Shown: one piece after another, positions 11,901 to 60,957 of the stretch | Numbering within the stretch: position 1 is the stretch's first letter | How the letters are laid out: every line of letters begins with the position of its first letter | Source of the DNA: Bolinopsis microptera | Lineage: Eukaryota; Ctenophora; Tentaculata; Lobata; Bolinopsidae | NCBI RefSeq assembly: GCF_026151205.1 | Contig: NC_087076.1 | Coordinates: 558,001-622,000 of the forward strand | Reading direction: 5' to 3' | DNA: 64,000 nt | Notes under the pieces: generated by a model | The model's input: the letters and a program-made list of their open reading frames with translations, nothing else | Database searches by the model: none | Told to the model about the DNA's origin: nothing | Program-made: the position numbers and the translations under genes

Positions 11901-11907
11901 AACCGGG

Positions 11908-13406: not shown

Positions 13407-13677
13407 CAGTGGCGTAACGAAAGGCCCTGCTGACCCCGCTGTGCAGGGGGGCGCCAAATCGTCGTTTGAATGTGGGACAATTTCGAAAACTTAACTAAAG
13501 TACTAGCAAAACTGCGCGTTTTGCTCTAGATACACACTTTTTTAGAGATTTTACCGGCGTATTCTTTAAAATCACCTAATTTGTTCAATTTTAGGGAGGG
13601 GCACCAAAAGGGGAGGGGGCGCCAACAGGGGGGCGCTTTTTTCGTCAGGGGCGCCAACAGGCAACGTTACGCCACTG
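13407..13677. mobile_element. hAT-type MITE, 271 bp
   Basis: Termini cagtggcgtaacg and cgttacgccactg form a 13-bp perfect inverted repeat. It is flanked by an 8-bp direct duplication gctattgg (13399-13406 and 13678-13685). An 8-bp duplication with CAG...CTG ends is diagnostic of hAT. No coding capacity; the interior has repeated gggcgcc motifs. Confidence 0.9.
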
Positions 13678-13689
13678 GCTATTGGACTC

Positions 13690-14430: not shown

Positions 14431-14432
14431 AG

Positions 14433-14485
14433 TCACTTGTCCATTATCGAATCAGCCTTTGAGAGATAGTCAACATCATCCATAC
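14433..14485 (-). CDS. PDE possible last coding exon
   Basis: Candidate 3' end. In the same frame as exon 21 the sequence reads [16 protein letters not shown] and a stop at 14433-14435. Phase 0 from exon 21 fits an acceptor at ctctcaaag (coding from 14456: ADSIMDK, stop). The acceptor atattag at 14486-14487 would need a different incoming phase, unless the array is translated straight through. No clear poly(A) signal was seen downstream. Confidence 0.35.
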
Positions 14486-17400
14486 CTAATATAAAAAACA
14501 TACCTAATATAAAAACTACTCTATAAAAAACTAATAACTGCCCCGTATAATATGTATTAAATAATAATTTGACAGTGCTCGCTAATTTCACAGTGCTCGC
14601 TAATTTCACAGTGCTCGCTAATTTGACAGTGCTCGCTAATTTCACAGTGCTCGCTAATTTCACAGTGCTCGCTAGTTTCACAGTGCTCGCTAATTTCACA
14701 GTGCTCGCTAATTTCACAGTGCTCGCTAATTTCACAGTGCTCGCTAATTTCACAGTGCTCGCTAATTTCACAGTGCTCGCTAATTTCACAGTGCTCGCTA
14801 GTTTCACAGTGCTCGCTAGTTTGACAGTGCTCGCTAATTTCACAGTGCTCGCTAATTTCACAGTGCTCGCTAATTTCACAGTGCTCGCTAATTTCACAGT
14901 GCTCGCTAGTTTCACAGTGCTCGCTAGTTTCACAGTGCTCGCTAGTTTCACAGTGCTCGCTAATTTCACAGTGCTCGCTAGTTTCACAGTGCTCGCTAAT
15001 TTCACAGTGCTCGCTAATTTCACAGTGCTCGCTAGTTTCACAGTGCTCGCTAATTTCACAGTGCTCGCTAATTTCACAGTGCTCGCTAGTTTCACAGTGC
15101 TCGCTAATTTGACAGTGCTCGCTAATTTCACAGTGCTCGCTAATTTCACAGTGCTCGCTAGTTTCACAGTGCTCGCTAGTTTCACAGTGCTCGCTAATTT
15201 CACAGTGCTCGCTAATTTCACAGTGCTCGCTAATTTCACAGTGCTCGCTAGTTTCACAGTGCTTGCTAGTTTCACAGTGCTCGCTAATTTGACAGTGCTC
15301 GCTAATTTCACAGTGCTCGCTAATTTCACAGTGCTCGCTAATTTCACAGTGCTCGCTAGTTTCACAGTGCTCGCTAGTTTCACAGTGCTCGCTAGTTTCA
15401 CAGTGCTCGCTAGTTTCACAGTGCTCGCTAGTTTCACAGTGCTCGCTAATTTCACAGTGCTCGCTAATTTCACAGTGCTCGCTAGTTTCACAGTGCTCGC
15501 TAGTTTCACAGTGCTCGCTAGTTTCACAGTGCTCGCTAGTTTCACAGTGCTCGCTAGTTTCACAGTGCTCGCTAGTTTCACAGTGCTCGCTAATTTCACA
15601 GTGCTCGCTAGTTTCACAGTGCTCGCTAATTTCACAGTGCTCGCTAGTTTCACAGTGCTCGCTAATTTCACAGTGCTCGCTAATTTCACAGTGCTCGCTA
15701 ATTTCACAGTGCTCGCTAATTTCACAGTGCTCGCTAGTTTCACAGTGCTCGCTAATTTCACAGTGCTCGCTAATTTCACAGTGCTCGCTAATTTCACAGT
15801 GCTCGCTAATTTCACAGTGCTCGCTAATTTCACAGTGCTCGCTAATTTCACAGTGCTCGCTAATTTCACAGTGCTCGCTAATTTCACAGTGCTCGCTAAT
15901 TTCACAGTGCTCGATATGCTCACTAGTAGGACGTGGCCTGGCTCGGCCAAGTCAGGAGTGGGAGTCTTGCCATCGTCCTCCTGGCTATGCACTATATTGT
16001 CCTCCTGGTCTTCATCTGACATTTCATCAGAAAACCTTGCTTCTCTGGGCTAGGGGGAGGGCGTGACAATGAGGGCGCAGTAAAAAGTAAACGTGGTAAA
16101 GTAAACGTGGCAAAGTGAATGTATATAGTATATAGTACAAGAGATTAGTAATGAGGTGAGGTGATTATTGAAATCACAATGCTTGAGGCATGACACTAGA
16201 GAAACTAGCAATACTAGACTAGTATACTAACCCTGGAGGCATGACACTAAAGAAACTAGCAATACTAGACTAGACTAGACTATAATAGACTAGACTAGAC
16301 TAGTCTAGTCTAGACTAGACTAGACTAGACTAGACTAGACTAGACTAGACTAGACTAGACTAGACTAGACTAGTATACTTACCCGGTTAGTGTTTATAGA
16401 GGTAAGGGTGATGTTGGCGCTGGAGATGTCCGCAAACGAGGTCCGTCTTTCACACAGATTGGACCAGTTGCGTCGGTTACTTAAACAGCCGTCTAGAAGC
16501 GGCCGGAAAAGGGGGTTCGCTTTCTCTAATGACTGAAGAAACGAGCATGTTGGATCAGGTTTTTGAAACATTCTCACTATCAAAATAAACAAGTAAAGAA
16601 AAGCAGAGGCACATATTAGGTGCGGTAAAAAAATCGAAATTATGCGGTACCGCACCCGACTATAAAGGTAAAATGTGCGGTAAGGTGCGGTAAATTTTTA
16701 CCAATTATGCGGCAATTATGCGATTTTTTCGAAATTTGTGCGGGAATTGTGCGGTTTTCTTTTGCATTTTCTGAAGGACTTTGGAAATTCTAAACGTATA
16801 ACCGCCGCTCTTATCAAAAATAGGTCTGTTTATGTGTTACTGAGGGTGTAGTTCTTTACTAAGACCATGATTGAACGTATATTGAGATTCAGTTATCTGA
16901 GAACAGCGACTTGATCTGGTAGAGATCAGGAGACAGTTATTTGAAGACGCCTCTTGATAGAGTCGATCAGATCCCATGCGTGATCGCAAATATGTGACAC
17001 GCTTGTTGGCATTGATCGTCAGTACTTGTAAACCATTTGATCAAAGATCCATTAAGCCCACTATAAAGCCAACGCTACAACGAACAGAGCTCATTACCCG
17101 ATAAAAAGGGCTGCAGTTATGATCGAAGTACGGTAACGACGAGGGTTCCATAACGGCCTGGGTCACGGTCCCGAAAGGGCCTGGGTCACGGTCCCGAAAG
17201 GGCCTGGGTAACGGTCCCGAAAGGGCCTGGGTCATGGTCCCGAAAGGGCCTGGGTCACGTGGTAACCGGGTCACGTGGCCTAGGCAGGAGTTCCAAAAGG
17301 GCCTGGGTCACGGTCCCGAAAGGGCCTGGGTCAGGGTCCCGAAAGGGCCTGGGTCACGTGGTAACTGGGTCACGTGGCCTAGGTATGAGTTCCAAAAGGG

Positions 17401-20400
17401 CCTGGGTCACGGTCCCGAAAGGGCCTGAGTCACGGTCCTAAAAGGGCCTGAGTCACGGTCCCGAAAGGGCCCGACTTTTAACATATTTTGGTTTTTACAC
17501 TCGAAAATCTTAACGTGAAAATTTCAAAATTATGCGAAATTACGCGGAAAATGCTAGATTATGCGGAAATATGCAGAAAATTACAAAATGTGCGGAAAAC
17601 AATAAATTATGCGGAAATGTGCGTAAAACGGTAAATTGTGCGATCCCGCACCCATCGCACCTAATATGTGCCTCTGAAGAAAAGTGAAAAATCTTATAGT
17701 TTCTTTATCTACAAACACAGATTAAACGAATCTTGTGCATTGTTATCCACTATACTGTCTCGACTCGTGTAATGGTTTAAAAGAAATGTAATGTTTGGTT
17801 TAATTTGAATATCATGTCATTAGTAAACATGTATATTGCAGAAGTTGACTACGCTTGTATCTTCAATTTTGATAGTGTTTCAAAATCTGTGAATCTTTAC
17901 CTCATAGAGCTCCAAGCAAATATTGTCAATGAATCCGACTTGCATTTTGGGAAGTTCATCTCGTTTACTTCTGTCCATCATGTACGCTGGCGTGTGTCCA
18001 AACTTATCCCGCTAATGGTACAACAATTCAATAAAGAAACCAAGTAAGAAATTACTATTCTAAAGTTTAACCAATATTGAGACTATTACATGGTATAACC
18101 AGTATATGTACCTCAATGTCCCCCTGATTGAAGAACTCGCTGGTTACCTGGTTACCTGGTTACCTGGTTACCTGGTTACCTGGTTACCTGGTTACCTGGT
18201 TACCTGGTTACCTGGTTACCTGGTTACCTGGTTACCTGGTTACCTGGTTACCTGGTTACCTGGTTACCTGGTATAACCAGTATATGTACCTCAATGTCCC
18301 CCTGATTGAAGAACTCGCTGGTTACCTGGTTACCTGGTTACCTGGTTACCTGGTTACCTGGTTACCTGGTTATTTGGTTACCTGGTTACCTGGTTACCTG
18401 GTTACCTGGTTACCTGGTTACCTGGTTATTTGGTTACCTAGTTACCTGGTATAACCAGTATATGTACCTCAATGTCCCCCTGATTGAAGAACTCGCTGGC
18501 GATCTTCTCAGCTACCATTCTCTGAACCTCCCAAGGTTTAGTGATAGCAGAGAGATCACATCCAGTTATCATCATAGAGCGGAGCAGTACTCTGTTGTCT
18601 CCATCGTCCCAATTAGTGTCCGGGTTTTCCACCAGCTGCTTGAACAGGGATTTATGCCTGGTAAAAGAGAAAGTGTTGATATCAATACTGCAACTTCAGC
18701 TTGATATGAAAGGTTATCAGGATTAAGCTCATTAATGAGAACTCACTTGAAGTACAGAGCCAGGTCAGTAGCCAGGATTGTGGTCTTGGTGAGATCTAAG
18801 AACTGGGAATGTTCCTGCTCGTTGAGCCCTTTAAAGATGTTGTTCCCCTCCACTTGGGAGATGGTGAGGAAGTGGTTGAAGTGATGGTACTCCATAAAGG
18901 AGGTGCTGTACAGGTTAGCTAGTGGACTGTCAGATCTGCGGTAAACAAGTTAGCTAGTGGTTAACAAGTTAGCTAGTGGTTAACATGTTAGCTAGTGGTT
19001 AACATGTTAGCTAGTGGTTAACAAGTTAGCTAGTGGTTAACAAGTTAGCTAGTGGTTAACAAGTTAGCTAGTGGTTAACAAGTTAGCTAGTGGTTAACAA
19101 GTTAGCTAGTGGTTAACAAGTTAGCTAGTGGTTAACAAGTTAGCTAGTGGTTAACAAGTTAGCTAGTGGTTAACAAGTTAGCTAGTGGTTAACAAGTTAG
19201 CTAGTGGTTAACAAGTTAGCTAGTGGTTAACAAGTTAGCTAGTGGTTAACAAGTTAGCTAGTGGTTAACAAGTTAGCTAGTGGTTAACAAGTTAGCTAGT
19301 GGTTAACAAGTTAGCTAGTGGTTAACAAGTTAGCTAGTGGTTAACAAGTTAGCTAGTGGTTAACAAGTTAGCTAGTGGTTAACAAGTTAGCTAGTGGTTA
19401 ACAAGTTAGCTAGTGGTTAACAAGTTAGCTAGTGGTTAACAAGTTAGCTAGTGGTTAACAAGTTAGCTAGTGGTTAACAAGTTAGCTAGTGGTTAACAAG
19501 TCAGCTAGTGGTTAACAAGTTAGCTAGTGGTTAACAAGTTAGCTAGTGGTTAACAAGTCAGCTAGTGGTTAACAAGTCAGCTAGTGGTTAACAAGTTAGC
19601 TAGTGGTTAACAAGTTAGCTAGTGGTTAACAAGTTAGCTAGTGGTTAACAAGTTAGCTAGTGGTTAACAAGTTAGCTAGTGGTTAACAAGTTAGCTAGTG
19701 GTTAACAAGTTAGCTAGTGGTTAACAAGTTAGCTAGTGGTTAACAAGTTAGCTAGTGGTTAACAAGTTAGCTAGTGGTTAACAAGTTAGCTAGTGGTTAA
19801 CAAGTTAGCTAGTGGTTAACAAGTTAGCTAGTGGTTAACAAGTTAGCTAGTGGTTAACAAGTTAGCTAGTGGTTAACAAGTTAGCTAGTGGTTAACAAGT
19901 CAGCTAGTGGTTAACAAGTCAGCTAGTGGTTAACAAGTTAGCTAGTGGTTAACAAGTTAGCTAGTGGTTAACAAGTTAGCTAGTGGTTAACAAGTTAGCT
20001 AGTGGTTAACAAGTTAGCTAGTGGTTAACAAGTTAGCTAGTGGTTAACAAGTTAGCTAGTGGTTAACAAGTTAGCTAGTGGTTAACAAGTTAGCTAGTGG
20101 TTAACAAGTTAGCTAGTGGTTAACAAGTTAGCTAGTGGTTAACAAGTTAGCTAGTGGTTAACAAGTTAGCTAGTGGTTAACAAGTTAGCTAGTGGTTAAC
20201 AAGTTAGCTAGTGGTTAACAAGTTAGCTAGTGGTTAACAAGTTAGCTAGTGGTTAACAAGTTAGCTAGTGGTTAACAAGTCAGCTAGTGGTTAACAAGTT
20301 AGCTAGTGGTTAACAAGTCAGCTAGTGGTTAACAAGTTAGCTAGTGGTTAACAAGTCAGCTAGTGGTTAACAAGTTAGCTAGTGGTTAACAAGTTAGCTA

Positions 20401-29400: not shown

Positions 29401-31223
29401 TACCACTAGCAACCCCCACAGTAAGGGCGTACCCCACTACCACTAGCAACCCCCACAGTAAGGGCGTACCCCACTACCACTAGCAACCCCCACAGTAAGG
29501 GCGTACCCCACTACCACTATCAACCCCCACAATAAGGGCGTACCCCACTACCACTAGCAACCCCCACAGTAAGGGCGTACCCCAACTACAGTTGCATTTG
29601 ATAAGTTGATAATGACTATGATGTGCAGTTTATACCTGGTTACTCTTGAATACTCACCTCTGATTGGTTGTTCTTGACTGGCATACAGAGAATACTCTTC
29701 GTTCTGAAACCCGTTTGCATATCGATAGCTTTGTTAAACCGCTCGTCCTGAAGTGTTTCTACAATGAAGTGGATTAAAATTAGAGAAGTATTCTAGTGAG
29801 CCGTATAAGTGGAGTAAAAAATAACATTGGATGACTAGGCGTAATTAGAATAACAATCAAATTTAATTGTAATGATTATTGTAACGGAAGTGTGGGTAAA
29901 CTACTAGATTATGATACCTTACGAGACATATTTATGTTCGACATAATTCCAGTGACCTTAATGATTTGGGAACGAAAATATGGGAATTTTTACCGAAAAC
30001 CGTCACATTTCGTACCCCAAATTAAATCATGGTATTTGGGGATTTTTTCATCTCCTTATTTTACAAAAATGAAACCCAATATTTGAGAAAATTAAATACA
30101 AAAATCTTCTCTGATTAGCTGTTCATCTTGTAAACAATTTCTCCGGAGCCTTTGAAAGTTAGCCTCAACTTAATTTATAATCCTCCAGAGGGTATAGGTA
30201 GGAGACCGACAGTGTTTGTTATCTTCCACTAATCCCAGAATTTCACCGCCGTGGCCAATAAAGTAGTGACAGAGCCTGCTTATTTTTAATGGAACGTGTC
30301 CAAAATCCCTTTTAAAGCAATAATTCATGATCGAATACTAGTGTTCATTAATTGTTTGATGAATCATGTTTATAACTTACTATATTGATAAGTTGATAGT
30401 AAATCGAGAAAGTCATAATTAAGGAAAATATATGAAACATAATTTGAGGAAAATAATGATGGTGACCTAAATTTTGGTGGTCCGAAAATATGGTGTTTTT
30501 TTGTTGTTGAATAACCACCGACTTTCGTACCATTTAAATATGTCTCGTAAGGTATACAATACTATTATACTTCTCTACAGCACTATAACATCTGGGCACT
30601 AGTTTGGCAATGTGCCAGGCTGACAAGTGGGCACTAGTTTGGCAATGTGCCAGGCTGACAAGTGGGCACTAGTTTGGCAATGTGCCAGGCTGACAAGTGG
30701 GCACTAGTTTGGCAATGTTCCAGGCTGACAAGTGGGCACTAGTTTGGCAATGTGCCAGGCTGACAAGTGGGCACTAGTTTGGCAATGTGCCAGGCTGGCA
30801 AGTGGGCACTAGTTTGGCAATGTTCCAGGCTGACAAGTGGATACTAGTTTGGCAATGGGCCAGGCTGACAAGTGGGCACTAGTTTGGCAATGTTCCAGGC
30901 TGACAAGTGGGCACTAGTTTGGCAATGTGCCAAGCTGACAAGTGGGCACTAGTTTGGCAACGTGCCAGGCTGACAAGTGGGCACTAGTTTGGCAATGTTC
31001 CAGGCTGACAAGTGGGCACTAGTTTGGCAATGTGCCAGGCTGACAAGTGGGCACTAGTTTGGCAATGTGCCAAGCTCACAAGTGGGTACTAGTTTGGCAA
31101 CGTGCCAGGCTAATGATCCTACTCTCTTATCATCGTTAAATTTAGAGGCGCATGTAAGTAGTGGTAAGTAGTATGTAGCATGATGACTCTGATTGCTAGT
31201 TGGGGATGTGGTGTACTTGCTAA

Positions 31224-31254
<31 letters not shown>

Positions 31255-52200: not shown

Positions 52201-55200
52201 GCACACAGTTGACAAGTAGTTCTATAATCTAGCAAACAGTTGGCAAGTAGTTCTATAATCTAGCAAACAGTTGACAAATAGTTCTATAATCTAGCACACA
52301 GTTGACAAGTAGTTCTATAATCTAGCACACAGTTGGCAAGTAGTTCTATAATCTAGCACACAGTTGACAAGTAGTTCTATAATCTAGCACACAGTTGACA
52401 AGTAGTTCTATAATCTAGCACACAGTTGACAAGTAGTTCTATAATCTAGCACACAGTTGACAAGTAGTTCTATAATCTAGCACACAGTTGACAAGTAGTT
52501 CTATAATCTAGCACACAGTTGACAAGTAGTTCTATAATCTAGCACACAGTTGACAAGTAGTTCTATAATCTAGCACACAGTTGACAAGTAGTTCTATAAT
52601 CTAGCACACAGTTGGCAAGTAGTTCTATAATCTAGCACACAGTTGACAAGTAGTTCTATAATCTAGCACACAGTTGACAAGTAGTTCTATAATCTAGCAC
52701 ACAGTTGACAAGTAGTTCTATAATCTAGCACACAGTTGACAAGTAGTTCTATAATCTAGCACACAGTTGACAAGTAGTTCTATAATCTAGCACACAGTTG
52801 GCAAGTAGTTCTATAATCTAGCACACAGTTGACAAGTAGTTCTATAATCTAGCACACAGTTGACAAGTAGTTCTATAATCTAGCACACAGTTGACAAGTA
52901 GTTCTATAATCTAGCACACAGTTGACAAGTAGTTCTATAATCTAGCACACAGTTGACAAGTAGTTCTATAATCTAGCACACAGTTGACAAGTAGTTCTAT
53001 AATCTAGCACACAGTTGACAAGTAGTTCTATAATCTAGCACACAGTTGACAAGTAGTTCTATAATCTAGCACACAGTTGACAAGTAGTTCTATAATCTAG
53101 CACACAGTTGACAAGTAGTTCTATAATCTAGCACACAGTTGACAAGTAGTTCTATAATCTAGCACACAGTTGACAAGTAGTTCTATAATCTAGCACACAG
53201 TTGACAAGTAGTTCTATAATCTAGCACACAGTTGACAAGTAGTTCTATAATCTAGCACACAGTTGACAAGTAGTTCTATAATCTAGCACACAGTTGACAA
53301 GTAGTTCTATAATCTAGCACACAGTTGACAAGTAGTTCTATAATCTAGCACACAGTTGACAAGTGGTTCTATAATCTAGCACACAGTTAACAAGTAGTTC
53401 TATAATCTAGCACACAGTTGACAAGTAGTTCTATAATCTAGCACACAGTTGACAAGTAGTTCTATAATCTAGCACACAGTTGACAAGTAGTTCTATAATC
53501 TAGCACACAGTTGACAAGTAGTTCTATAATCTAGCACACAGTTGGCAAGTAGTTCTATAATCTAGCACACAGTTGACAAGTAGTTCTATAATCTAGCACA
53601 CAGTTGACAAGTAGTTCTATAATCTAGCACACAGTTGACAAGTAGTTCTATAATCTAGCACACAGTTGACAAGTAGTTCTATAATCTAGCACACAGTTGA
53701 CAGGTAGTTCTATAATCTAGCACACAGTTGGCAAGTAGTTCTATAATCTAGCACACAGTTGACAAGTAGTTCTATAATCTAGCACACAGTTGACAAGTAG
53801 TTCTATAATCTAGCACACAGTTGACAAGTAGTTCTATAATCTAGCACAAGTTGACAGGTAGTTCTATAATCTAGCACACAGTTGACAGGTAGTTCTATAA
53901 TCTAGCACACAGTTGACAAGTAGTTCTATAATCTAGCAAACAGTTGACAAGTAGTTCTATAATCTAGCACAAGTTGACAGGTAGTTCTATAATCTAGCAC
54001 ACAGTTGACAGGTAGTTCTATAACCTAGCACACAGTTGACAAGTAGTTCTATAATCTAGCAAACAGTTGACAAGTAGTTCTATAATCTAGCACAAGTTGA
54101 CAGGTAGTTCTATAATCTAGCACACAGTTGACAGGTAGTTCTATAACCTAGCACACAGTTGACAAGTAGTTCTATAATCTAGCACACAGTTGACAAATAG
54201 TTCTATAATCTAGCACACAGTTGACAAGTAGTTCTATAATCTAGCACACAGTTGACAAGTAGTTCTATAATCTAGCACACAGTTGACAAGTAGTTCTAAA
54301 ATCTAGCAAACAGTTGACAAGTAGTTCTATAATCTAGCACACAGTTGACAAGTAGTTCTATAATCTAGCACACAGTTGACAAGTAGTTCTAAAATCTAGC
54401 ACACAGTTGACAAGTAGTTCTATAATCTAGCACACAGTTGACAAGTAGTTCTATAATCTAGCACACAGTTGACAAGTAGTTCTATAATCTAGCACACAGT
54501 TGGCAAGTAGTTCTATAATCTAGCACACAGTTGACAAGTAGTTCTATAATCTAGCAAACAGTTGACAAGTAGTTCTATAATCTAGCACACAGTTGGCAAG
54601 TAGTTCTATAATCTAGCACACAGTTGACAGGTAGTTCTATAATCTAGCACACAATTGGCAAGTAGTTCTATAATCTAGCAAACAGTTGACGAGTAGTTCT
54701 ATAATCTAGCACACAGTTGACAAGTAGTTCTAAAATCTAGCACACAGTTGACAAGTAGTTCTATAATCTAGCACACAGTTGGCAAGTAGTTCTATAATTT
54801 AGCACACAGTTGGCAAGTAGTTCTATAATCTAGCACACAGTTGACAGGTAGTTCTATAATCTAGCACACAATTGGCAAGTAGTTCTATAATCTAGCAAAC
54901 AGTTGACAAGTAGTTCTATAATCTAGCACACAGTTGGCAAGTAGTTCTATAATCTAGCAAACAGTTGACAAGTAGTTCTATAATCTACCACACAGTTGAC
55001 AATCACTCGTTGCTGCACGGAAGAAAAAGAAAGGCGTAATTAAATCTGAAGTTGTTTTCAGTGGATCACAGTGAAACTTACTATTTCACCTATAAAAGTA
55101 TGAAGGTAAAATTTTCAACCATGCTCGCATTTTTTTTTCAAGTCAAACCAAAAAACAAGATTCTTTCTTTAATGATTATGTGCATTTTATTGAACACGAA

Positions 55201-58200
55201 AAATCCTCAGAGAAAAGCATGATCACGTGATATGTAGGCAAGAATGAACAATTTCTATCTGTCTCCTACCGATCCTACAGATCCTAGTGGTATGATACAA
55301 TGCATCCCAGACCCTAGTGGTATGTTACAATGCATCCCAGACCCTAGTGGTATGTTACAATGCATCCCAGACCCTAGTGGTATGTTACAATGCATCCCAG
55401 ACCCTAGTGGTATGTTACAATGCATCCCAGACCCTAGTGGTATGTTACAATGCATCCCAGACCCTAGTGGTATGTTACAATGCATCCCAGACCCTGGTGG
55501 TATGTTACAATGCATCCCAGACCCTAGTGGTATGTTACAATGCATCCCAGACCCTGGTGGTATGTTACAATGCATCCCAGACCCTGGTGGTATGTTACAA
55601 TGCATCCCAGACCCTAGTGGTATGTTACAATGCATCCCAGACCCTAGTGGTATGTTACAATGCATCCCAGACCCTAGTGGTATGTTACAATGCATCCCAG
55701 ACCCTAGTGGTATGTTACAATGCATCCCAGACCCTAGTGGTATGTTACAATGCATCCCAGACCCTAGTGGTATGTTACAATGCATCCCAGACCCTAGTGG
55801 TATGTAACAATGCATCCCAGACCCTAGTGGTATGTTACAATGCATCCCAGACCCTAGTGGTATGTTACAATGCATCCCAGACCCTAGTGGTATGTTACAA
55901 TGCATCCCAGACCCTAGTGGTATGTTACAATGCATCCCAGACCCTAGTGGTATGTAACAATGCATCCCAGACCCTAGTGGTATGTTACAATGCATTCCAG
56001 ACCCTAGTGGTATGTTAGAATGCATCCCAGACCCTAGTGGTATGTTACAATGCATCCCAGACCCTAGTGGTATGTTACAATGCATCCCAGACCCTAGTGG
56101 TATGTAACAATGCATCCCAGACCTTAGTGGTATGTTACAATGCATCCCAGACCTTAGTGGTATGTTACAATGCATCCCAGACCCTAGTGGTATGTTACAA
56201 TGCATCCCAGACCCTAGTGGTATGTTAGAATGCATCCCAGACCCTAGTGGTATGTTACAATGCATCCCAGACCCTAGTGGTATGTTAGAATGCATCCCAG
56301 ACCCTAGTGGTATGTTAGAATGCATCCCAGACCCTAGTGGTATGTTACAATGCATCCCAGACCCTAGTGGTATGTTACAATGCATCCCAGACCCTAGTGG
56401 TATGTTACAATGCATCCCAGACCCTAATGGTATGTTACAATGCATCCCAGACCCTAGTGGTATGTTACAATGTATCCCAGACCCTAGTGGTATGTTACAA
56501 TGCATCCCAGACCCTAGTGGTATGTTACAATGCATGCCAGACCCTAGTGGTATGTTACAATGTATCCCAGACCCTAGTGGTATGTTACAATGCATGCCAG
56601 ACCCTAGTGGTATGTTAGAATGCATCCCAGACCCTAGTAGTATGTTACAATGCATCCCAGACCCTAGTGGTATGTTACAATGCTATACGAGCTGTTATGG
56701 AGACAGTTTGAACTTGCTTAATCTTGCCGTGTCGTCATGGTAACAGGTACTACAGTGGGTACACAAAGGAGACAGTTGCCATGTTGTCATGGAAACTAGT
56801 CAGGAACTACACAAAGGTGTCACAAGTAATCTCACTTAAGCTTATTCTGAATGTAGGCAATGTTTTTAGGAAGTGAGGCTGAGAAGCTAAAGCTGGATTC
56901 GCCCGTGAGACTGAACTCCCTGAGGTTGTGGTAGCTGTAATTACCATGGTTACAGGTAATTACCATGGTTACAGGTAATTACCATGGTTACAGGTAATTA
57001 CCATGGTTACAGGTAATTACCATGGTTACAGGTAATTACCATGGTTACAGGTAATTACCATGGTTACAGGTAATTACCATGGTTACAGGTAATTACCATG
57101 GTTACAGGTAATTACCATGGTTACAGGTAATTACCATGGTTACAGGTAATTACCATGGTTACAGGTAATTACCATGGTTACAGGTAATTACCATGGTTAC
57201 AGGTAATTACCATGGTTACAGGTAATTACCATGGTTACAGGTAATTACCATGGTTACAGGTAATTACCATGGTTACAGGTAATTACCATGGTTACAGGTA
57301 ATTACCATGGTTACAGGTAATTACCATGGTTACAGGTAATTACCATGGTTACAGGTAATTACCATGGTTACAGGTAATTACCATGGTTATTGGTTACAGG
57401 TAATTACCATGGTTACAGGTAATTACCATGGTTACAGGTAATTACCATGGTTACAGGTAATTACCATGGTTACAGGTAATTACCATGGTTACAGGTAATT
57501 ACCATGGTTACAGGTAATTACCATGGTTACAGGTAATTACCATGGTTACAGGTAATTACCATGGTTACAGGTACTACTGGGAGCTGTAGGGGGGGTCTGC
57601 TACAGCTGTTATTCAGAGCTGACAGGTGTATGTTTTCAGACCATATCTTAAGTGTTATTATTGTAATTGCTACAAATTAACTGACAACTTAGCTCGCTAA
57701 AATGAGAGGCTCTGAGTAAGCGACAATAGTAAGTATTCTACAGTAGTGTGGGTATTGAGTGCAGTACAGCAGGTGATTCTTGACGTCACATGACTACATT
57801 TTTAGCCTTGATGGAGACTTTCCATCTAAACAAGGCCGGGATTTTGAGCTTCATAAGATACATATCTCCATAGTAACGAGAAAGTAAAAACAAGCATAAC
57901 AAGGTCATACAGCCTCTCCATGACAACCATGAGCCGTCCCCATGACAACCAGCTAACTTACCTCCTGTATGGTTTGAGGATGGGCGCACCCTCCCTTGAC
58001 AAGGTCTTCCTGAACTGTCTGTTGGGGAAGTGATGTAACTGCTTGCCAGGTGGCACTGCTGGTACTGCTGGTACCACGTCCATTGCTTCCTCCCTTACAG
58101 GCGGGTCTGGGAACAAGAGTAAGTTAGCGAAACTATGCTCGGTCAGAATACCTGTCAGCAGCGTGACAAATATCCAGCTCTGTCTCACAGTTCTTCCAAC

Positions 58201-60403
58201 AAGTTATTAATAATAGTTAATAAATGCCTTTATAAATGCCTTAATATGGTAACTACAGTCCCAACTATGGTAACCATGGTAACCTACCTAAAGTAGCTTT
58301 GGTAACAGGAGGTACCACTAGCTGGTTGTCCACAATGGATGTCTTATGTTCTACTGTGTGGCACGACTTCCCCTCTTCTTCCGTTCTGCTGCGTTTCCGC
58401 TCTTTTTCCGTTGACGATTTTCTCCCATGGGCCTGATAGTGGTTGAGCTAGGTGTAAAATAAACTTAATCTAAGTAGAAAATTTAAAGTGTATCTGATTA
58501 CTTTTCAAATGTATTATTAATACTCGTTATTTGGTATTAACATCACATAATTACAATAACTTACACAAGGAATACGCGTGACACACAGGAGGCTTCCCAA
58601 TTCACAGTAGAGTTACTCTACTGTTCAGTTCAATGGTTTATCTTAAAACAGAAGCCACACAATTCCTAGCTCATCATTTGCCGGGCTTCGGTAACAAACA
58701 TGTTTTGAAACCAAATTTTGCAAATAAATCTTAATTTAAACGATTTAATTAATTAGCGTAAGCCGGTTTCCTTAGTTCTTGGCAGACTCTACAGTTTGAA
58801 ATGTAAGCGAGTGTAATGTGTAACTGAGGACAAGGTATCAATATGAAGAGAAACCCTAGATTAAATTAGATTACTGCAGTCTTCCAACTTAATAGTGACC
58901 CTGCCTTTAGCTGAACTATAGCAACTTAATAGTGACCCTGCTTATAGCTGAACTATACCAACTTAATAGTGACCCTGCTTATAGCTGAACTATAGCAACT
59001 TAATAGTGACCCTGCTTATAGCTGAACTATAGCAACTTAATAGTGACCCTGCTTATAGCTGAACTATAGCAACTTAATAGTGACCCTGCTTATAGCTGAA
59101 CTATAGCAACTTAATAGTGACCCTGCTTATAGCTGAACTATAGAAACTTAATAGTGACCCTGCTTATAGCTGAACTATAGCAACTTAATAGTGACCCTGC
59201 TTATAGCTGAACTATAGCAACTTAATAGTGACCCTGCTTATAGCTGAACTATAGCAACTTAATAGTGACCCTGCTTATAGCTGAACTATAGCAACTTAAT
59301 AGTGACCCTGCTTATAGCTGAATTATAGCAACTTAATAGTGACCCTGCTTATAGCTGAACTATAGCAACTTAATAGTGACCCTGCTTATAGCTGAACTAT
59401 AGAAACTTAATAGTGACCCTGCTTATAGCTGAACTATAGCAACTTAATAGTGACCCTGCTTATAGCTGAACTATAGCAACTTAATAGTGACCCTGCTTAT
59501 AGCTGAACTATAGCAACTTAATAGTGACCCTGCTTATAGCTGAACTATAGCAACTTAATAGTGACCCTGCTTATAGCTGAACTATAGAAACTTAATAGTG
59601 ACCCTGCTTATAGCTGAACTATAGCAACTTAATAGTGACCCTGCTTATAGCTGAACTATAGCAACTTAATAGTGACCCTGCTTATAGCTGAACTATAGCA
59701 ACTTAATAGTGACCCTGCCTTTAGCTGAACTACAGCAACTTAATAGTGACCCTGCTTATAGCTGAACTACAGCAACTTAATAGTGACCCTGCTTATAGCT
59801 GAACTATAGCAACTTAATAGTGACCCTGCTTATAGCTGAACTATAGCAACTTAATAGTGACCCTGCTTATAGCTGAACTATAGCAACTTAATAGTGACCC
59901 TGCTTATAGCTGAACTATAGCAACTTAATAGTGACCCTGCCTTTAGCTGAACTACAGCAACTTAATAGTGACCCTGCTTATAGCTGAACTACAGCAACTT
60001 AATAGTGACCCTGCTTATAGCTGAACTATAGCAACTTAATAGTGACCCTGCTTATAGCTGAACTATAGCAACTTAATAGTGACCCTGCTTATAGCTGAAC
60101 TATAGCAACTTAATAGTGACCCTGCTTATAGCTGAACTATAGCAACTTAATAGTGACCCTGCTTATAGCTGAACTATAGCAACTTAATAGTGACCCTGCT
60201 TATAGCTGAACTATAGCAACTCAATAGTGACCCTGCTTATAGCTGAACTATAGCAGGGTTGCTATAGTGACCCTGCTTACCTTGTACCAGTGCTCGTATA
60301 GCTCCTTAAGGTCTGTCTCGGAGAGATGGGTAACCACGTACTTGTGCAGATAACCGGGATGCTCCTCAAGGTACCTCTCTACATTGGGCTCCGACAACGG
60401 CAT
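14433..60403 (-). CDS. PDE5/6/11-family cyclic-nucleotide phosphodiesterase, PDE11-like; whole spliced gene
   Basis: Hydrolyses cAMP and/or cGMP to the 5'-monophosphate in the cytosol (family knowledge). The 21 coding segments listed separately join without a phase conflict into one frame of about 1,050 codons, against roughly 930 for human PDE11A4. Domain order by approximate residue: N-terminal helix 1-41; basic, Ser-rich linker 42-200; GAF-A about 235-440; GAF-B about 450-630; catalytic domain about 670-990; acidic tail 1006-1047. Visible catalytic features are YHNWRH (about 737), HDIDH with an Asn five residues on (about 778), [10 protein letters not shown] with the metal-ligand Asp (about 889), and the purine-binding Gln in KMQVGF (about 942). 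Both GAF domains keep the NK...F...DE motif. VNIPDAYQ in GAF-A and the [10 protein letters not shown] / FAMLT block resemble PDE11 more than PDE5 or PDE6; no CAAX box supports PDE6. Introns are packed with minisatellites. The extreme 3' end and any 5' non-coding exons are uncertain. Confidence 0.93.
14568..15912. repeat. 18-bp tandem array, about 74 copies
   Basis: Unit gtgctcgctaatttcaca with three variants (aat/agt; ttc/ttg; ctc/ctt). Open on both strands because 18 is divisible by three. On the minus strand every unit reads STVKLA, in frame with exon 21 of the phosphodiesterase. Confidence 0.97.
15924..16049 (-). CDS. PDE exon 21 (acidic C-terminal tail)
   Basis: 126 bp from acceptor tccccctag (phase 0) to a candidate donor gtgagc. 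Encodes an acidic tail ([20 protein letters not shown]) with no family similarity; accepted from composition, phase and splice sites. If the donor is not used, the frame stays open through the 18-bp array at 14.57-15.91 kb and adds about 74 copies of STVKLA. The intronic reading fits the pattern seen at other exons; the translated reading is discussed in the findings. Confidence 0.65.
16184..16372. repeat. Two copies of a 50-bp block plus (AGACT)n array
   Basis: A block starting ggcatgacacta occurs twice (16187 and 16240), followed by tagac repeats with a central inversion at about 16298-16310. Between the blocks tagtatactaaccc is a decayed copy of the exon 20 donor region. Confidence 0.85.
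16383..16532 (-). CDS. PDE exon 20 (end of catalytic domain)
   Basis: 150 bp, acceptor gtttcttcag, donor gtaagt, phase 0 both ends. Encodes [20 protein letters not shown] then [10 protein letters not shown], matching ...LKPMLDSVATNRSKWEEL at the end of the PDE11 catalytic domain, then a Ser/Thr/Asn-rich stretch. Between it and exon 19 sits a 1.07 kb hAT-like element. An AGACT array starts about 10 bases into the following intron. Confidence 0.92.
16604..17676. mobile_element. hAT-like non-autonomous element, 1,073 bp
   Basis: Terminal inverted repeats start cagaggcacatattaggtgc (about 22 bp, near perfect) and are flanked by an 8-bp duplication aagaaaag (16596-16603 and 17677-17684). Subterminal regions are rich in tgcgg / atgcggaaa motifs on both sides, as hAT transposase binding regions often are. 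The centre holds a 22-bp array. No transposase is present. It is inserted in the intron between phosphodiesterase exons 19 and 20. Confidence 0.92.
17150..17470. repeat. 22-bp tandem array inside the hAT-like element
   Basis: Unit contains cgaaagggcctgggtcacgg, about 13 copies, with a longer variant ggtaaccgggtcacgtggcc inserted twice. Confidence 0.9.
17901..18011 (-). CDS. PDE exon 19 (purine-binding Gln)
   Basis: 111 bp, acceptor taccattag, donor gtaaag, phase 0 both ends. Encodes [20 protein letters not shown] then CLELYE. The Gln after KM is the invariant residue that holds the purine ring. The exon starts REK-like (RDKFGHTP), as expected after FFNQGDIE. Confidence 0.96.
18092..18448. 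repeat. 178-bp higher-order repeat: exon 18 donor copies plus (ttacctgg)n
   Basis: Each period holds a copy of the exon 18 end and donor (about 50 bp) followed by some 16 copies of ttacctgg. Copies of gtataaccagtatatgtacc start at 18093, 18271 and, at the genuine exon, 18449: exactly 178 bp apart. Confidence 0.95.
18468..18657 (-). CDS. PDE exon 18 (catalytic core, metal-ligand Asp)
   Basis: 190 bp, acceptor cttttaccag, donor gtacat, phase 2 in and phase 0 out. Encodes [20 protein letters not shown] then [11 protein letters not shown]; the Asp of [10 protein letters not shown] is a metal ligand. The last 33 coding bases and the donor are repeated at 18290 and 18112. Confidence 0.96.
18747..18935 (-). 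CDS. PDE exon 17 (catalytic core)
   Basis: 189 bp, acceptor ttaccgcag at 18936-18937, donor gtgagt, phase 2 both ends. Encodes [20 protein letters not shown] then [12 protein letters not shown], matching LAQLYGTSATLEHHHFNH and SILATDLTLYF. A second identical acceptor lies at 20491-20492, beyond a 19-bp array grown from the first exon bases. Use of the distal acceptor reads into the array and meets a stop within about 13 codons. Confidence 0.95.
18936..20489. repeat. 19-bp tandem array, about 80 copies, at the exon 17 acceptor
   Basis: Unit ttaacaagttagctagtgg, with a tca variant. The first bases of exon 17 (gttagctagtggactgtcag) occur at both ends of the array, each followed by the same acceptor. 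Confidence 0.97.
20500..21560. other. Intron between exons 16 and 17 beyond the array
   Basis: Unique sequence with a poly-G run at about 20650-20669 and five copies of accattaatg at about 20750-20790. Nothing else is seen. Confidence 0.6.
21565..21795 (-). CDS. PDE exon 16 (catalytic core, HD motif)
   Basis: 231 bp, acceptor tcccccag, donor gtgagt, phase 2 both ends. Encodes [33 protein letters not shown] and [19 protein letters not shown]. It contains the catalytic His (YHNWRH) and the class I phosphodiesterase signature HD-x2-H-x4-N that binds Zn2+ and Mg2+. The best-conserved exon of the window, and the one that decides the family. Confidence 0.97.
21909..22042 (-). CDS. PDE exon 15 (start of catalytic domain)
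   Basis: 134 bp, acceptor atttgcag, donor gtgttc, phase 0 in and phase 2 out. Encodes [20 protein letters not shown] then [15 protein letters not shown], equivalent to the IHFDDFSLD...AALRMFMELGMVQKF segment of PDE11. Confidence 0.95.
22193..22243 (-). CDS. PDE exon 14 (linker to catalytic domain)
   Basis: 51 bp, acceptor ggtttcag, donor gtatgg, phase 0 both ends. Encodes [17 protein letters not shown]; the LSYHA motif is a hallmark of the PDE5/6/11 linker just before the catalytic domain. Confidence 0.95.
22905..22997 (-). CDS. PDE exon 13 (GAF-B end and linker helix)
   Basis: 93 bp, acceptor atttacag, donor gtgaat, phase 0 both ends. Encodes [20 protein letters not shown] and ends AQKVVLE, matching AFVIFCGLGINNTIMYDQV and the helix entering the catalytic domain. 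Confidence 0.95.
23107..23733. repeat. 28-bp tandem array replicating the exon 12 donor, about 22 copies
   Basis: Minus-strand unit is gagtccctatttgag (end of exon 12) followed by gtaactttaaaat. Nearly all copies keep an intact GT; variants alter single bases (acctc/accgc; actc/accc). The first unit is the exon end itself. Confidence 0.98.
23716..23783 (-). CDS. PDE exon 12 (GAF-B NKFDE motif)
   Basis: 68 bp, acceptor tttattcag, donor gtaact, phase 1 in and phase 0 out. Encodes [20 protein letters not shown] then LFE, the NK...F...DE motif of GAF-B. The last 15 coding bases plus the donor are the unit of the adjacent 28-bp array. Reading on past the true donor gives VTLK and then a stop, so use of any downstream donor copy would truncate the protein. 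Confidence 0.93.
24113..24355. repeat. 32-bp tandem array, about 7.5 copies
   Basis: Unit contains cgccgcagtaacacggacac then gtgcccataaaa. Each copy has a CACGTG E-box core. It lies in the intron between exons 11 and 12. Confidence 0.95.
24430..24718 (-). CDS. PDE exon 11 (GAF-B)
   Basis: 289 bp, phase 0 in and phase 1 out, donor gtaaga. It starts at acceptor ccacgcag (24718), or in frame six bases later at ggccag (24712). Encodes [21 protein letters not shown], then [19 protein letters not shown], corresponding to AELVASTGLPVNI and IRSVLCVPIWN of PDE11. The loop between them is divergent. A 20-bp array ends about 30 bp upstream of the acceptor. Confidence 0.92.
24737..25335. repeat. 20-bp tandem array, about 30 copies
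   Basis: Unit actcagttcataatcacatc, with c/a and c/t variants. It ends about 30 bp upstream of the exon 11 acceptor. Confidence 0.97.
25418..25431. promoter_or_regulatory. Perfect X-box-like palindrome
   Basis: gttaccatggtaac is a perfect 14-bp palindrome matching the RFX-factor X-box consensus. It lies about 50 bases into the intron after exon 10. Function unproven. Confidence 0.35.
25478..25645 (-). CDS. PDE exon 10 (start of GAF-B)
   Basis: 168 bp, acceptor ctccttgcag, donor gtgagt, phase 0 both ends. Encodes [20 protein letters not shown] then [19 protein letters not shown], matching the LFEEQTDLEKIVKKIM...CERCSVLLLE start of PDE11 GAF-B. Confidence 0.93.
25672..25785. repeat. Two copies of a block of about 60 bp near the exon 10 acceptor
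   Basis: Blocks share ttactgcttagcaatcacgt and gaccaggtg.cacacggacc. They lie 30-140 bp upstream of the acceptor. Confidence 0.85.
26101..26373. repeat. 15-bp tandem array, about 18 copies
   Basis: Unit aggtgcactatgttg. The long frames here on both strands are repeat artefacts. Confidence 0.97.
26743..26953. repeat. 11- to 13-bp array (catagtgcaca)
   Basis: Units acatagtgcac with cgc and att variants. It is related in reverse complement (gtgcactatgt) to the 15-bp array 400 bp away. Confidence 0.9.
27252..28028. repeat. 29-bp G-rich tandem array, about 27 copies
   Basis: Unit contains gtggggtgcagagcggggtg then gtgactgg. Lies between exons 9 and 10. Confidence 0.97.
28291..28449 (-). CDS. 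PDE exon 9 (GAF-A end and GAF linker helix)
   Basis: 159 bp, acceptor atcttgcag, donor gtaagt, phase 0 both ends. Encodes [17 protein letters not shown] and [19 protein letters not shown], including the NK...F...DE motif that supports nucleotide binding in GAF-A, followed by the long helix connecting to GAF-B. Confidence 0.95.
28819..29590. repeat. 37-bp tandem array, about 21 copies
   Basis: Unit contains cacagtaagggcgtacccca then ctaccactagcaaccc; almost invariant. It ends about 65 bp short of the exon 8 donor. Confidence 0.98.
29658..29747 (-). CDS. PDE exon 8 (GAF-A)
   Basis: 90 bp, acceptor acacttcag, donor gtgagt, phase 0 both ends. Encodes [20 protein letters not shown] and CMPVKN, matching the D.RFN.EID..TGYKTKS.LCMP block of GAF-A in PDE5/11. 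Confidence 0.95.
29915..30554. mobile_element. Non-autonomous DNA element, 640 bp, TA-flanked
   Basis: Ends taccttacgagacatattta and its reverse complement form an inverted repeat of about 20 bp beginning and ending with TA. This suggests a Tc1/mariner-type TA target duplication (inference). The interior is AT-rich with repeated gaaaatatgg motifs and no transposase. Inserted between exons 7 and 8. Confidence 0.75.
30594..31112. repeat. 35-bp tandem array, about 15 copies
   Basis: Unit contains gggcactagtttggcaatgt then gccaggctgacaagt. Each copy holds the TTGGCA...TGCCA inverted half-sites of an NF1-like motif. Confidence 0.95.
31221..32725. repeat. G-tract minisatellite, units about 45-90 bp
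   Basis: Two alternating modules, gatagtttctagcgagggtg and catagtttctagtgagagtg, separated by runs of 8 to 28 G. G-run lengths vary and are likely unreliable. Strong G-quadruplex potential on the plus strand. Confidence 0.95.
32730..32980. other. Intron spacer, nothing seen
   Basis: Unique AT-rich sequence between the G-tract array and the exon 7 donor array. Confidence 0.5.
32985..33672. repeat. 42-/57-bp tandem array derived from the exon 7 donor
   Basis: Units carry agtggggtgtagtacttggg then tgatggtgtagtagcaacac, with or without a 15-bp accaagtgtagc segment. On the minus strand each holds aagtactacaccccactg, against caggtactacaccccactg at the true donor. Confidence 0.95.
33674..33824 (-). 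CDS. PDE exon 7 (GAF-A core)
   Basis: 151 bp, acceptor gcgacag, donor gtacta, phase 2 in and phase 0 out. Encodes [14 protein letters not shown], then [20 protein letters not shown] and DAYQ, the GAF-A cyclic-nucleotide pocket region; it aligns closely with PDE11 (VSKFFDV; GKGIIGYVGEHGETVNIP). The donor sequence and the intron bases after it are propagated through the array at 32.98-33.67 kb. Confidence 0.95.
34053..35335. repeat. C-tract minisatellite
   Basis: Modules ctagtatcagggagaggtac, taatgctacac and ctagtagggagttgtactaa, joined by runs of 5 to 25 C. Quadruplex potential is on the minus (template-complement) strand. Lies between exons 6 and 7. Confidence 0.95.
35628..38281. repeat. 52-bp tandem array, about 35 copies, split by an insertion
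   Basis: Unit contains cataccttggtaactgtcct then taaataccctgctactcctt. About 8 copies precede and 27 follow the insertion at 36.05-36.88 kb. On the minus strand each unit has accaaggtatgtaatgg, a donor-like AAG/gtatgt, though no exon was found beside it. Confidence 0.97.
36045..36880. mobile_element. About 0.84 kb insertion within the 52-bp array
   Basis: Ends share an inverted ttcccaaaaatttg, extended outward to accttaRttccc on both sides. The interior repeats (g)cccaaattttt motifs near both ends and has no coding frame. The array resumes immediately, so this is an insertion into an existing array; the superfamily cannot be assigned. Confidence 0.7.
38359..38500. repeat. CT-rich low-complexity tract (ccccct)n
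   Basis: A pyrimidine-only stretch of about 140 bp near the exon 6 donor; the Ser-Pro frame here is an artefact. Confidence 0.95.
38663..39002 (-). CDS. PDE exon 6 (linker and start of GAF-A)
   Basis: 340 bp, ending at donor gttggt in phase 2. The first half is a basic, low-complexity linker ([10 protein letters not shown]) with possible kinase sites. The second half starts [24 protein letters not shown] then [16 protein letters not shown], matching LELVKDIS..LDLTSL and ADRCSLFLV of PDE11. Two acceptors fit: tttgtccag (exon from 39002, after exon 5) and tctcagag (from 38989, directly after exon 4). Confidence 0.92.
39559..39632 (-). CDS. PDE exon 5, possible cassette exon
   Basis: 74 bp with a strong acceptor (ctttctccccag) and consensus donor gtaagt. 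Read from the incoming phase 2 it is open ([19 protein letters not shown]) and leaves in phase 1, which fits exon 6 if that exon starts at 39002. If it is skipped, exon 6 can still be entered in frame at 38989, so this may be an alternative exon. It lies alone between a 17 kb repeat-filled intron and exon 6. Confidence 0.6.
39700..40312. repeat. 8-/9-bp tandem array (agtgaaat / agaaaaat / agtgaagt)
   Basis: Arranged as a higher-order repeat of about 90-130 bp. Starts about 65 bp upstream of the exon 5 acceptor. Confidence 0.95.
40541..41940. repeat. ggtacctata-type array with nested repeats
   Basis: Built of acctatactacaggtacct, atatacagtacctata and cacagtacct modules. A block of about 300 bp (41040-41340) is repeated at 41400-41700 as a higher-order unit. 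GGTACC palindromes throughout. Confidence 0.95.
42052..42957. repeat. 30- to 36-bp tandem array with embedded (GT)n, about 28 copies
   Basis: Unit contains aattacaggcgtgtagggtg then ctgtgtgtgt; length varies by whole GT steps, so slippage is superimposed on unit duplication. Confidence 0.97.
43060..44140. repeat. 27-bp tandem array with a higher-order structure
   Basis: Unit contains gtttgtacacagagtgtaac then tatgacaac. A distinct segment gaatatatacattatacata recurs at about 43065, 43279 and 43692, marking larger duplicated blocks. Confidence 0.95.
44142..44372. mobile_element. Hairpin (foldback) element, 231 bp
   Basis: Near-perfect inverted repeat over almost its full length: cattagggacgatagggtcg at the left, complement at the right, centre around ttgggctacattatatgaagccca. 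It sits exactly at the end of the 27-bp array. A typical foldback MITE; the target duplication is not clear. Confidence 0.8.
44375..44725. other. Intron spacer, nothing seen
   Basis: Unique AT-rich sequence between the hairpin element and the 21-bp array. Confidence 0.5.
44728..46275. repeat. 21-bp tandem array, about 60 copies, split by a LINE fragment
   Basis: Unit contains taccttaacattacccctgc; open in several frames on both strands because 21 is divisible by three. Copies at the outer ends are more diverged (cat, tgt, cgc variants) than those in the middle. Confidence 0.97.
45739..45898 (-). pseudogene. LINE reverse-transcriptase 3' tail fragment inside the 21-bp array
   Basis: Minus strand reads [20 protein letters not shown], then [14 protein letters not shown] and a stop near 45740. 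GRP..T..D......R.GL...E...L..DR..W is the usual C-terminal end of non-LTR reverse transcriptases. The array continues directly on both sides. Confidence 0.65.
46418..46485. repeat. 21-bp tandem repeat, about three copies
   Basis: Unit contains cacgtgctcacatgactagc; each has a CACGTG E-box. Confidence 0.9.
46678..47492. repeat. Pyrimidine-rich array (ctctatctctccctgcccct)
   Basis: 17- to 20-bp units of almost pure C/T on the plus strand over 0.8 kb. All long frames here are artefacts. A polypurine/polypyrimidine tract of this length can form triplex (H-DNA). Confidence 0.95.
47700..47970. repeat. Short arrays: cccttttaga and 15-/16-bp ttgtgcactgtttac
   Basis: Three copies of the first at about 47706-47735 and about nine of the second at 47813-47968. 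Confidence 0.9.
47975..48450. other. Intron spacer, nothing seen
   Basis: Unique AT-rich sequence; the frame from 48323 is not recognisable as protein. Confidence 0.5.
48452..48615. repeat. G-run array, unit about 50-60 bp, three to four copies
   Basis: Units contain tccccc.tttactagatgg and G runs of 8 to 12. Confidence 0.9.
48620..49270. other. Intron spacer
   Basis: Unique sequence, with a few copies of gttactaatgc at about 48957-49000. No exon seen. Confidence 0.5.
49273..55003. repeat. 31-bp tandem array, about 185 copies, 5.7 kb
   Basis: Unit contains aagtagttctataatctagc then acacagttgac. Very homogeneous; recurrent variants are ttggc for ttgac, aggt for aagt, gcaaac for gcacac, and a one-base-short cacaagttg form. 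Variants cluster near 51.6-51.8 and 53.8-55.0 kb, with blocks of the same variant order repeated. Lies in the 17 kb intron between exons 4 and 5. Confidence 0.98.
55010..55270. other. Intron spacer, nothing seen
   Basis: Unique AT-rich sequence between two arrays. Confidence 0.5.
55275..56682. repeat. 30-bp tandem array, about 47 copies
   Basis: Unit contains ccctagtggtatgttacaat then gcatcccaga, in perfect 30-bp register. Long open frames occur on both strands and in several registers, so they are not evidence of a gene. Starts about 150 bp past the exon 4 donor. Confidence 0.98.
56836..56934 (-). CDS. PDE exon 4 (linker)
   Basis: 99 bp, acceptor ttacag, donor gtgaga, phase 2 in and out. 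Encodes a Ser/Phe-rich linker ([17 protein letters not shown]) ahead of GAF-A. The 19-bp array at 56.94-57.57 kb ends directly on the acceptor, so the branch-point and pyrimidine-tract region is itself repeat sequence. Confidence 0.7.
56938..57572. repeat. 19-bp tandem array abutting the exon 4 acceptor, about 33 copies
   Basis: Unit ggtaattaccatggttaca, nearly invariant. On the minus strand it ends ...ccatggtaattacag at the acceptor. Each unit carries gtaaccatggtaat, close to an X-box. Confidence 0.98.
57580..57960. other. Intron between exons 3 and 4 beyond the array
   Basis: Unique sequence, nothing recognised. Confidence 0.5.
57962..58106 (-). CDS. PDE exon 3 (linker)
   Basis: 145 bp between acceptor gttcccag and donor gtaagt, phase 1 in and phase 2 out. 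Encodes a Pro/Val-rich linker followed by a basic motif [18 protein letters not shown]. The basic-Ser/Thr context is placed like the regulatory phosphosite upstream of GAF-A in PDE5/11 (inference). The open frame continues upstream of the acceptor but without family similarity. Confidence 0.75.
58288..58447 (-). CDS. PDE exon 2 (basic linker)
   Basis: 160 bp between acceptor cacctag and donor gtaggt, phase 0 in and phase 1 out. Encodes a highly charged linker ([19 protein letters not shown]), a possible nuclear-localisation or phosphorylation region, then a hydrophobic stretch ending in VTKATL. Not conserved in the family; accepted because phases and splice sites fit both neighbours. The donor is followed at once by ggttaccatggttacc, an X-box-like palindrome. 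Confidence 0.75.
58450..58878. other. Intron 1 spacer
   Basis: Unique AT-rich sequence upstream of exon 2, nothing recognised. Confidence 0.5.
58880..60253. repeat. 37-bp tandem array at the exon 1 donor, about 36 copies
   Basis: Unit contains gcaacttaatagtgaccctg then cttatagctgaactata. On the minus strand it includes ataagcagggtcactat, a copy of the intron start gtaagcagggtcactat with the donor GT changed to AT. Confidence 0.98.
60281..60403 (-). CDS. PDE exon 1 (N-terminal helix)
   Basis: 41 codons from ATG at 60403, ending in ELYEHWYK at a gtaag donor, phase 0. The [16 protein letters not shown] stretch matches the N-terminal helix of PDE5/10/11 enzymes (V..WLD.HP.F..Y type). The frame is open a few codons upstream (CVVR) to a possible acceptor ttgcag, so a further 5' exon and an earlier start cannot be excluded. 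The 37-bp array at 58.9-60.25 kb begins in the intron right after this donor. Confidence 0.8.
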
Positions 60404-60950: not shown

Positions 60951-60957
60951 CATGTCA

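Follow-up and report, generated by a model that had tools for sequence, protein, structure and literature searches.

Tandem arrays at the splice borders of a comb-jelly phosphodiesterase gene, read as tolerated border duplications

Tandem arrays fill much of the intron sequence of the gene described here, and some of them begin directly at exon borders. This locus raises the question whether arrays lie at splice sites more often than their abundance would predict, whether they copy these sites, and whether a mutational process aimed at splice sites has to be assumed.

The gene and its repeat load

A complete cyclic-nucleotide phosphodiesterase gene occupies positions 9972..60403 of the minus strand of the window, i.e. 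the whole stretch of 64,000 nucleotides that was analysed. According to spliced alignment, it comprises 21 coding exons that encode 978 amino acids in an unbroken frame, with a coding part of 2937 bp and introns of 47495 bp. The minus strand was spliced against the Mnemiopsis leidyi protein P0001; 20 exons were placed by alignment and exon 21 by its tail peptide. The 978-aa product is identical to P0001 at 901 of 969 aligned residues (93%) and to the relative P0003 at 668 of 922. The stretch therefore stems from a comb jelly close to Mnemiopsis (Lobata, Bolinopsidae) and, given the 93% protein identity, probably from a species other than Mnemiopsis leidyi. Pfam identifies PDEase_I (3.3e-78) and, in two stretches, GAF in the product. 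The exons referred to below are the following.

Exon 1: 60281..60403, minus strand; donor AAG|GTAAGC; from the spliced alignment
Exon 6: 33674..33824, minus strand; donor CAG|GTACTA, among the three lowest-scoring donors of the gene
Exon 11: 23716..23783, minus strand; donor GAG|GTAACT; from the spliced alignment
Exon 16: 18747..18935, minus strand; from the spliced alignment
Exon 17: 18468..18657, minus strand; donor GAG|GTACAT; from the spliced alignment
Exon 21, last coding exon: 9972..10022, minus strand; VGTLSNQPEEESGVEG; placed by the tail peptide

The first-pass annotation had ended the gene at 14433. This was wrong, as position 14433 is a stop codon met when reading through an intronic array and the last coding exon lies at 10022-9972. 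Read-through of the exon 20 donor keeps the frame open for 1491 nt (14433-16049, minus strand). In this frame, the hexapeptide ASTVKL is kept in 74 of the 75 units of the 18-bp array of intron 20, the last unit exiting the repeat. All 32 variants within the 73 inner units are synonymous, but they represent only three kinds of change. Coding use of this array was considered and rejected, with exon 21 and the exon length in Mnemiopsis favouring splicing at CTA|GTGAGC. The open frame may belong to an isoform that retains intron 20 and carries a long repeat tail, or it may have arisen by chance.

A six-frame Pfam search of the flanks (1-14433 and 60404-64000) yielded a single match above the cut-off. 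This match, to a GLTT repeat, probably represents the translation of an array. Other matches were below the cut-off or absent, and this search thus provided no second gene for replication. An open frame of 175 aa at 5958-6485 (plus strand) is without a Pfam match; we take it to resemble LINE ORF1.

Arrays were counted from a TRF score of 80 upwards unless stated otherwise. TRF arrays cover 37274 of the 64000 bases of the window. For Hormiphora californensis, another comb jelly, the excerpt of PMC8527503 states that TRF marked 13% of the genome. Within the gene, arrays occupy 30734 of 47495 intronic bases (65%), as opposed to 49 of 2937 exonic bases. The intronic arrays number 41 and are distributed over 14 of the 20 introns; for 34 of them, the distance to either splice site of the intron exceeds 10 bp. 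The longest array (49270-55002; 185 copies of a 31-bp unit in 5.7 kb) is found in intron 3, which spans 18.3 kb and holds 13 arrays of score 80 or more. Intron 5 carries one 52-bp unit, including the strong donor-like sequence AAGGTATGT, in two blocks (35625-36050 and 36879-38281) separated by 828 bp. The units of two arrays in intron 8, TGCACTATGTTG at 26104-26372 and CAACATAGTGCA at 26743-26951, are reverse-complementary and could in principle pair as a hairpin in the transcript.

Array edges and splice sites

An array edge lies within 10 bp of the donor, or overlaps it, in 6 of the 14 array-bearing introns. The donors concerned are those of exon 1 (gap of 1 bp), exon 6 (0), exon 11 (-17), exon 17 (-32), exon 19 (9) and exon 20 (10), where negative values indicate that the array overlaps the exon. 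Across all 14 introns, the donor gaps are -32, -17, 0, 1, 9, 10, 68, 75, 143, 174, 258, 264, 388 and 772 bp, such that in 8 introns the nearest array of score 80 or more is over 60 bp away from the donor. The corresponding acceptor gaps are 4, 21, 68, 74, 77, 109, 175, 214, 274, 368, 452, 458, 622 and 845, and the acceptor of exon 16 (gap 4) is the only anchored one. No enrichment is seen at the acceptors of the array-bearing introns (1 of 14, P 0.49), nor does it appear for acceptors in the rotation test or under the tolerant null described below. Clustering of arrays at exon boundaries, as described in the first-pass annotation, is therefore upheld for donors but not for splice sites in general. 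The contrast between six donors and one acceptor is small and suggestive.

The exon numbers of that annotation appear to exceed those of the present model by one, starting with the second exon it names. Its exon 4 is probably exon 3 of the present model, where 1.9 copies of a 22-bp unit are found 10 bp from the donor with a TRF score of 66, under the cut-off of 80. The array it placed near exon 11 probably refers to exon 10 (donor gap 75, acceptor gap 21).

Two null models were applied to the donor distances. In the point-insertion null, each array was reduced to a point and placed in what remains of its intron once the arrays are taken out; 6 donors have an array edge within 10 bp, compared to 0.65 expected (P about 0.00002), or 1.1 if the 50 bp before the acceptor are kept clear (P 0.0001). 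With the score cut-off loosened to 50, the count is 7 of 15 compared to 0.95 expected (P 0.00001). In the tolerant null, seed units of the observed period were placed in the collapsed intron and overlap with either exon was permitted. Under this model, 1.8-1.9 donors within 10 bp are expected (P 0.004-0.005), and P amounts to 0.06 at 5 bp and 0.0075 at 15 bp. Keeping 50 bp before the acceptor clear gives P 0.008 at 10 bp, 0.09 at 5 bp and 0.014 at 15 bp. P ranges from 0.008 to 0.019 when the six anchored introns are removed one at a time, and rises to 0.07 at 10 bp when introns 19 and 20 are removed together. Allowing for border-spanning duplications thus lowers the donor excess from roughly ninefold to roughly threefold. 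When the array map was rotated round the window, scored over 19 introns with intron 20 left out, the 5 donors observed compared with a mean of 0.84 and were reached in 0.16% of 1279 shifts. All of these P values are optimistic, since the cut-offs were fixed with the data in view, and in a window that a reader had selected.

Sequences repeated by the anchored arrays

The arrays anchored at splice sites, and one further border copy, are listed here.

Intron 1 array: 58885..60279, minus strand; 37-bp unit, 37.6 copies, starting at +2; units repeat the donor-side sequence TAAGCAGGGTCACTAT
Intron 6 array: 32986..33673, minus strand; 41/94-bp unit, starting at +1; units repeat GTACTACACCCC
Intron 11 array: 23107..23732, minus strand; 28-bp unit, 22.4 copies; includes 15 nt of the end of exon 11 and the donor
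Intron 15 array: 18940..20480, minus strand; 19-bp unit, 81 copies; stops 4 bp short of the exon 16 acceptor
Second copy of the exon 16 acceptor edge: 20465..20502, minus strand; at the far end of the intron 15 array; 12 intron and 26 exon nt, 3 mismatches
Intron 17 repeat: 18086..18499, minus strand; 178-bp unit, 2.3 copies; last 32 nt of exon 17, the donor and CAGGTAAC octamers
Intron 19 array: 16264..16373, minus strand; 5-bp unit, 22 copies; 9 bp past the exon 19 donor
Intron 20 array: 14565..15913, minus strand; 18-bp unit, 75 units; 10 bp past the exon 20 donor CTA|GTGAGC; units carry TAGCGAGC

The intron bodies were compared with the acceptor edges and with all 20 donor edges, each consisting of the last 30 exon nt and 6 intron nt. 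Introns 11, 15 and 17 alone stand out, and each copies its own neighbour: 23 of 23 nt in intron 11, 36 of 36 in intron 17, and 38 nt of the acceptor edge with 3 mismatches in intron 15. Their scores are 23 (intron 11), 36 (intron 17) and 29 (intron 15), as opposed to no score above 13 for any intron against the 19 other edges. If the intron side is included, the donor flank is also repeated in introns 1 (16 nt), 6 (24 nt) and 19 (21 nt, 1 mismatch), where it is the intron side of the donor alone, or nearly alone, that recurs. The match of intron 20 to its own donor is not above chance (flank score of 14 versus 13 for the best other donor; 7 for the donor itself).

The copied signals differ in their state of preservation. 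In intron 11, GAGGTAACT is present in 17 of 21 copies counted and the copied donor is intact. Intron 17 holds two extra copies of the exon edge, likewise with intact donors. The GT is kept in none of the 37 copies counted in intron 1 (ATAAGC in 34, AAAGGC in 3), and in all 14 copies counted in intron 6, GTACTACACCCC is preceded by CAA instead of CAG. Some 150 nt from its start, intron 19 has a single copy of the donor region, with GTTAGT for GTAAGT, and its 5-bp unit is without a donor. The intron 15 unit CCACTAGCTAACTTGTTAA resembles coding sequence of exon 16 and lacks the acceptor AG. It appears to combine exon 16 coding sequence with intron sequence from which the AG has been lost, as would result from a border duplication followed by deletion and amplification.

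It had been proposed earlier that several units contain an exon edge together with the donor or acceptor. This applies to the donors of exons 11 and 17; at exon 16, the unit has exon sequence but lacks the AG, and a single complete copy of acceptor plus exon is located at the far end of the array. Copying of splice sites, in the wording of that proposal, is thus full for two arrays (introns 11 and 17) and partial for four (introns 1, 6, 15 and 19). At the end of its exon part, the intron 11 unit reads ATTTGAG|GT, which is similar to the terminal AATTTGAG that the excerpt of PMC8527503 gives for the spliced leaders of comb jellies; since the sequence is coding, this likeness is probably a coincidence.

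Same-intron copies are common in this gene. In 12 of the 15 introns of at least 400 bp, they exist for 43-95% of 60 random 34-mers, the exceptions being intron 18 (25%) and introns 4 and 12 (none). The mere presence of a copy of a donor region is therefore no evidence, and edge distances were chosen as the statistic because copy presence is biased by length.

Donor-like sites were scored with a matrix derived from the 20 donors of the gene itself, and an array was counted as donor-like if a strong site occurred in a third of its units. Among the 41 arrays, no sense-strand bias was found (12 sense versus 14 antisense). Counting copies singly, arrays contain 9.4 and 8.8 sites per kb on the two strands, compared to 4.3 and 5.4 in other intron sequence. 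As the density is raised on both strands alike, arrays in general do not appear to be made from donors, and no general role in U1 docking is seen. The arrays of introns 11 and 17 contain 21 and 33 strong sense-strand sites, authentic donor included. The other 4 of the 6 donor-anchored arrays have no site above the threshold, below which the authentic donors of introns 6 and 20 also fall.

Origin of the anchored arrays and known systems

Splice-border arrays are a known structure, described in lancelets as mirages. It appears fairly probable that the anchored arrays are mirages as well, i.e. tandem duplications spanning or abutting a border that were amplified by ordinary repeat turnover (slippage or unequal exchange). 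A duplication wholly within an exon would be purged. One that spans a border would leave a complete exon-proximal splice site. The mRNA could then remain normal while the copies turn into unconstrained intron, from which arrays would grow away from the exon. The visible array edge would settle at the border because the exon part of the first copy is fixed while the rest drifts in concert. The donor side would be favoured because a donor needs only about six intron bases, and the acceptor side disfavoured because copies upstream of an acceptor would confront the splicing machinery with a decoy AG, branch point and pyrimidine tract. Tolerance is the simplest mechanism to account for the exclusion from exons, the exon-proximal position of the real site and the donor bias.

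Support for the mirage reading comes from the intact frame, the nearly array-free exons and the copied exon sequence in introns 11, 15 and 17. An in-frame stop follows within 82 nt of the donor in 18 of the 20 introns, and since stops follow so quickly, use of an inner donor copy would as a rule spoil the conserved protein. Conservation of this protein suggests that the gene is spliced correctly. The damage to copied signals (GT in intron 1, CAG in intron 6, GTAAGT in intron 19, AG in the exon 16 unit) points in the same direction. Against it stand the intact copied donors of introns 11 and 17, which indicate that copies need not be inactivated. In addition, two of the six donor-anchored arrays need not be mirages, because the 5-bp unit of intron 19 is without a donor and the intron 20 match is at chance level. 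The tolerant null removes much of the donor excess, which counts for mirages; it still leaves a threefold excess (6 versus 1.9, P about 0.005), which counts against them.

This remainder is what a donor-aimed mutational process would explain, in which tandem duplications arise more often near 5' splice sites than elsewhere, seeded by co-transcriptional R-loops, stalled forks or breaks. The excess is confined to donors (6 of 14 versus 0.65 or 1.9 under the two nulls) with acceptors at expectation, and it involves six unlike unit sequences of 5 to 178 bp. Yet the basis is one gene, in 8 of the 14 array-bearing introns the first 60 bp after the donor are free of arrays of score 80 or more, and selection is a simpler possible cause of the donor-acceptor contrast. 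Seeding at splice sites by R-loops or slippage is without independent support, because donor-like motifs show no sense-strand bias and the excess falls from ninefold to threefold; we regard a donor-aimed process as unlikely. The wider proposition that the comb-jelly 5' splice site is a transcription-coupled birth hotspot of tandem duplications, and that introns grow throughout the genome by way of donor-anchored minisatellites, is unlikely as well. Some small probability is kept for donor-targeted birth because tolerance explains the threefold excess only in part. Coincidence, by which some arrays must touch exons when 65% of the intron sequence is array and the gene was noticed for that reason, is rather unlikely but carries some weight. 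A single window was chosen after inspection, many random intron 34-mers have same-intron copies, and the tolerant-null P is 0.06-0.09 at 5 bp and 0.07 at 10 bp without introns 19 and 20. Placement does not explain the exon-edge copies in three introns, however, and P stays at 0.008-0.019 when any one anchored intron is removed. Functional retention of donor copies, e.g. for U1 snRNP docking along long introns or as alternative donors, is very improbable: the strong sites in introns 11 and 17 and the roughly twofold site density of arrays would agree with it, but the density is raised on both strands without a sense-strand excess, most donor-anchored arrays are devoid of sites above the threshold, and splicing at a downstream copy would usually run into stops. 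The anchored arrays are thus best read as tolerated duplications, and they are no proof of a new process aimed at splice sites.

The 34 arrays distant from both splice sites resemble ordinary intronic minisatellites; some of the anchored arrays differ from these in including splice-border sequence. In the Rogers model, which the excerpt of PMC3087553 names (see also PMC4974935), introns are gained by tandem genomic duplication of AG/GT proto-splice sites. The duplicated in-gene sequence with splice signals is shared with this model, but a new intron is made there, whereas the present arrays lie inside the introns of a conserved protein gene. In the open-licence literature, no report of mirage-type arrays in comb jellies was among the matches listed, and the excerpts of PMC11686069 and PMC3152781 contain nothing on splice sites.

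Lancelet mirages are the closest counterpart. The excerpts of PMC3087553 and PMC3902484 describe them as tandem duplications at intron-exon borders, with splicing said to be undisturbed, and record them gene by gene for Adh3, troponin C, the globins BflGb6 and BflGb9, and PGBD5 (Adh, troponin C, globin and PGBD5 in PMC3902484); their origin is called unclear. Shared with the present locus, as far as these excerpts go, are minisatellite-like repeats, many including AG/GT signals, that run across exon-intron borders at either end. Here, duplication concerns 5' borders, at the donors of exons 11 and 17, as well as a 3' border, at the acceptor of exon 16. Units spanning the border with exon sequence and splice signal are found in introns 11 and 17, in part in intron 15, and not fully in introns 1, 6, 19 and 20. 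Undisturbed splicing is reported for lancelets; for the present gene, the intact 978-aa frame gives it indirect support. Variation of copy number between haplotypes or cells is a further trait of mirages, and the present sequence stands for a single haplotype. The arrays described here further differ in occurring in a comb jelly, several per gene and with up to 81 copies, and in repeating the intron side alone, or nearly so, in introns 1, 6 and 19. In intron 11, about twenty almost perfect copies of the donor would confront the spliceosome within a few bases of the real one. A repeat-rich genome of this kind allows the birth rate of mirages at donors and acceptors to be counted; if donors were hotspots beyond tolerance, transcription or splicing would be implicated in the making of minisatellites. 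The presence of several mirages in one comb-jelly gene suggests that these structures are not a cephalochordate oddity.
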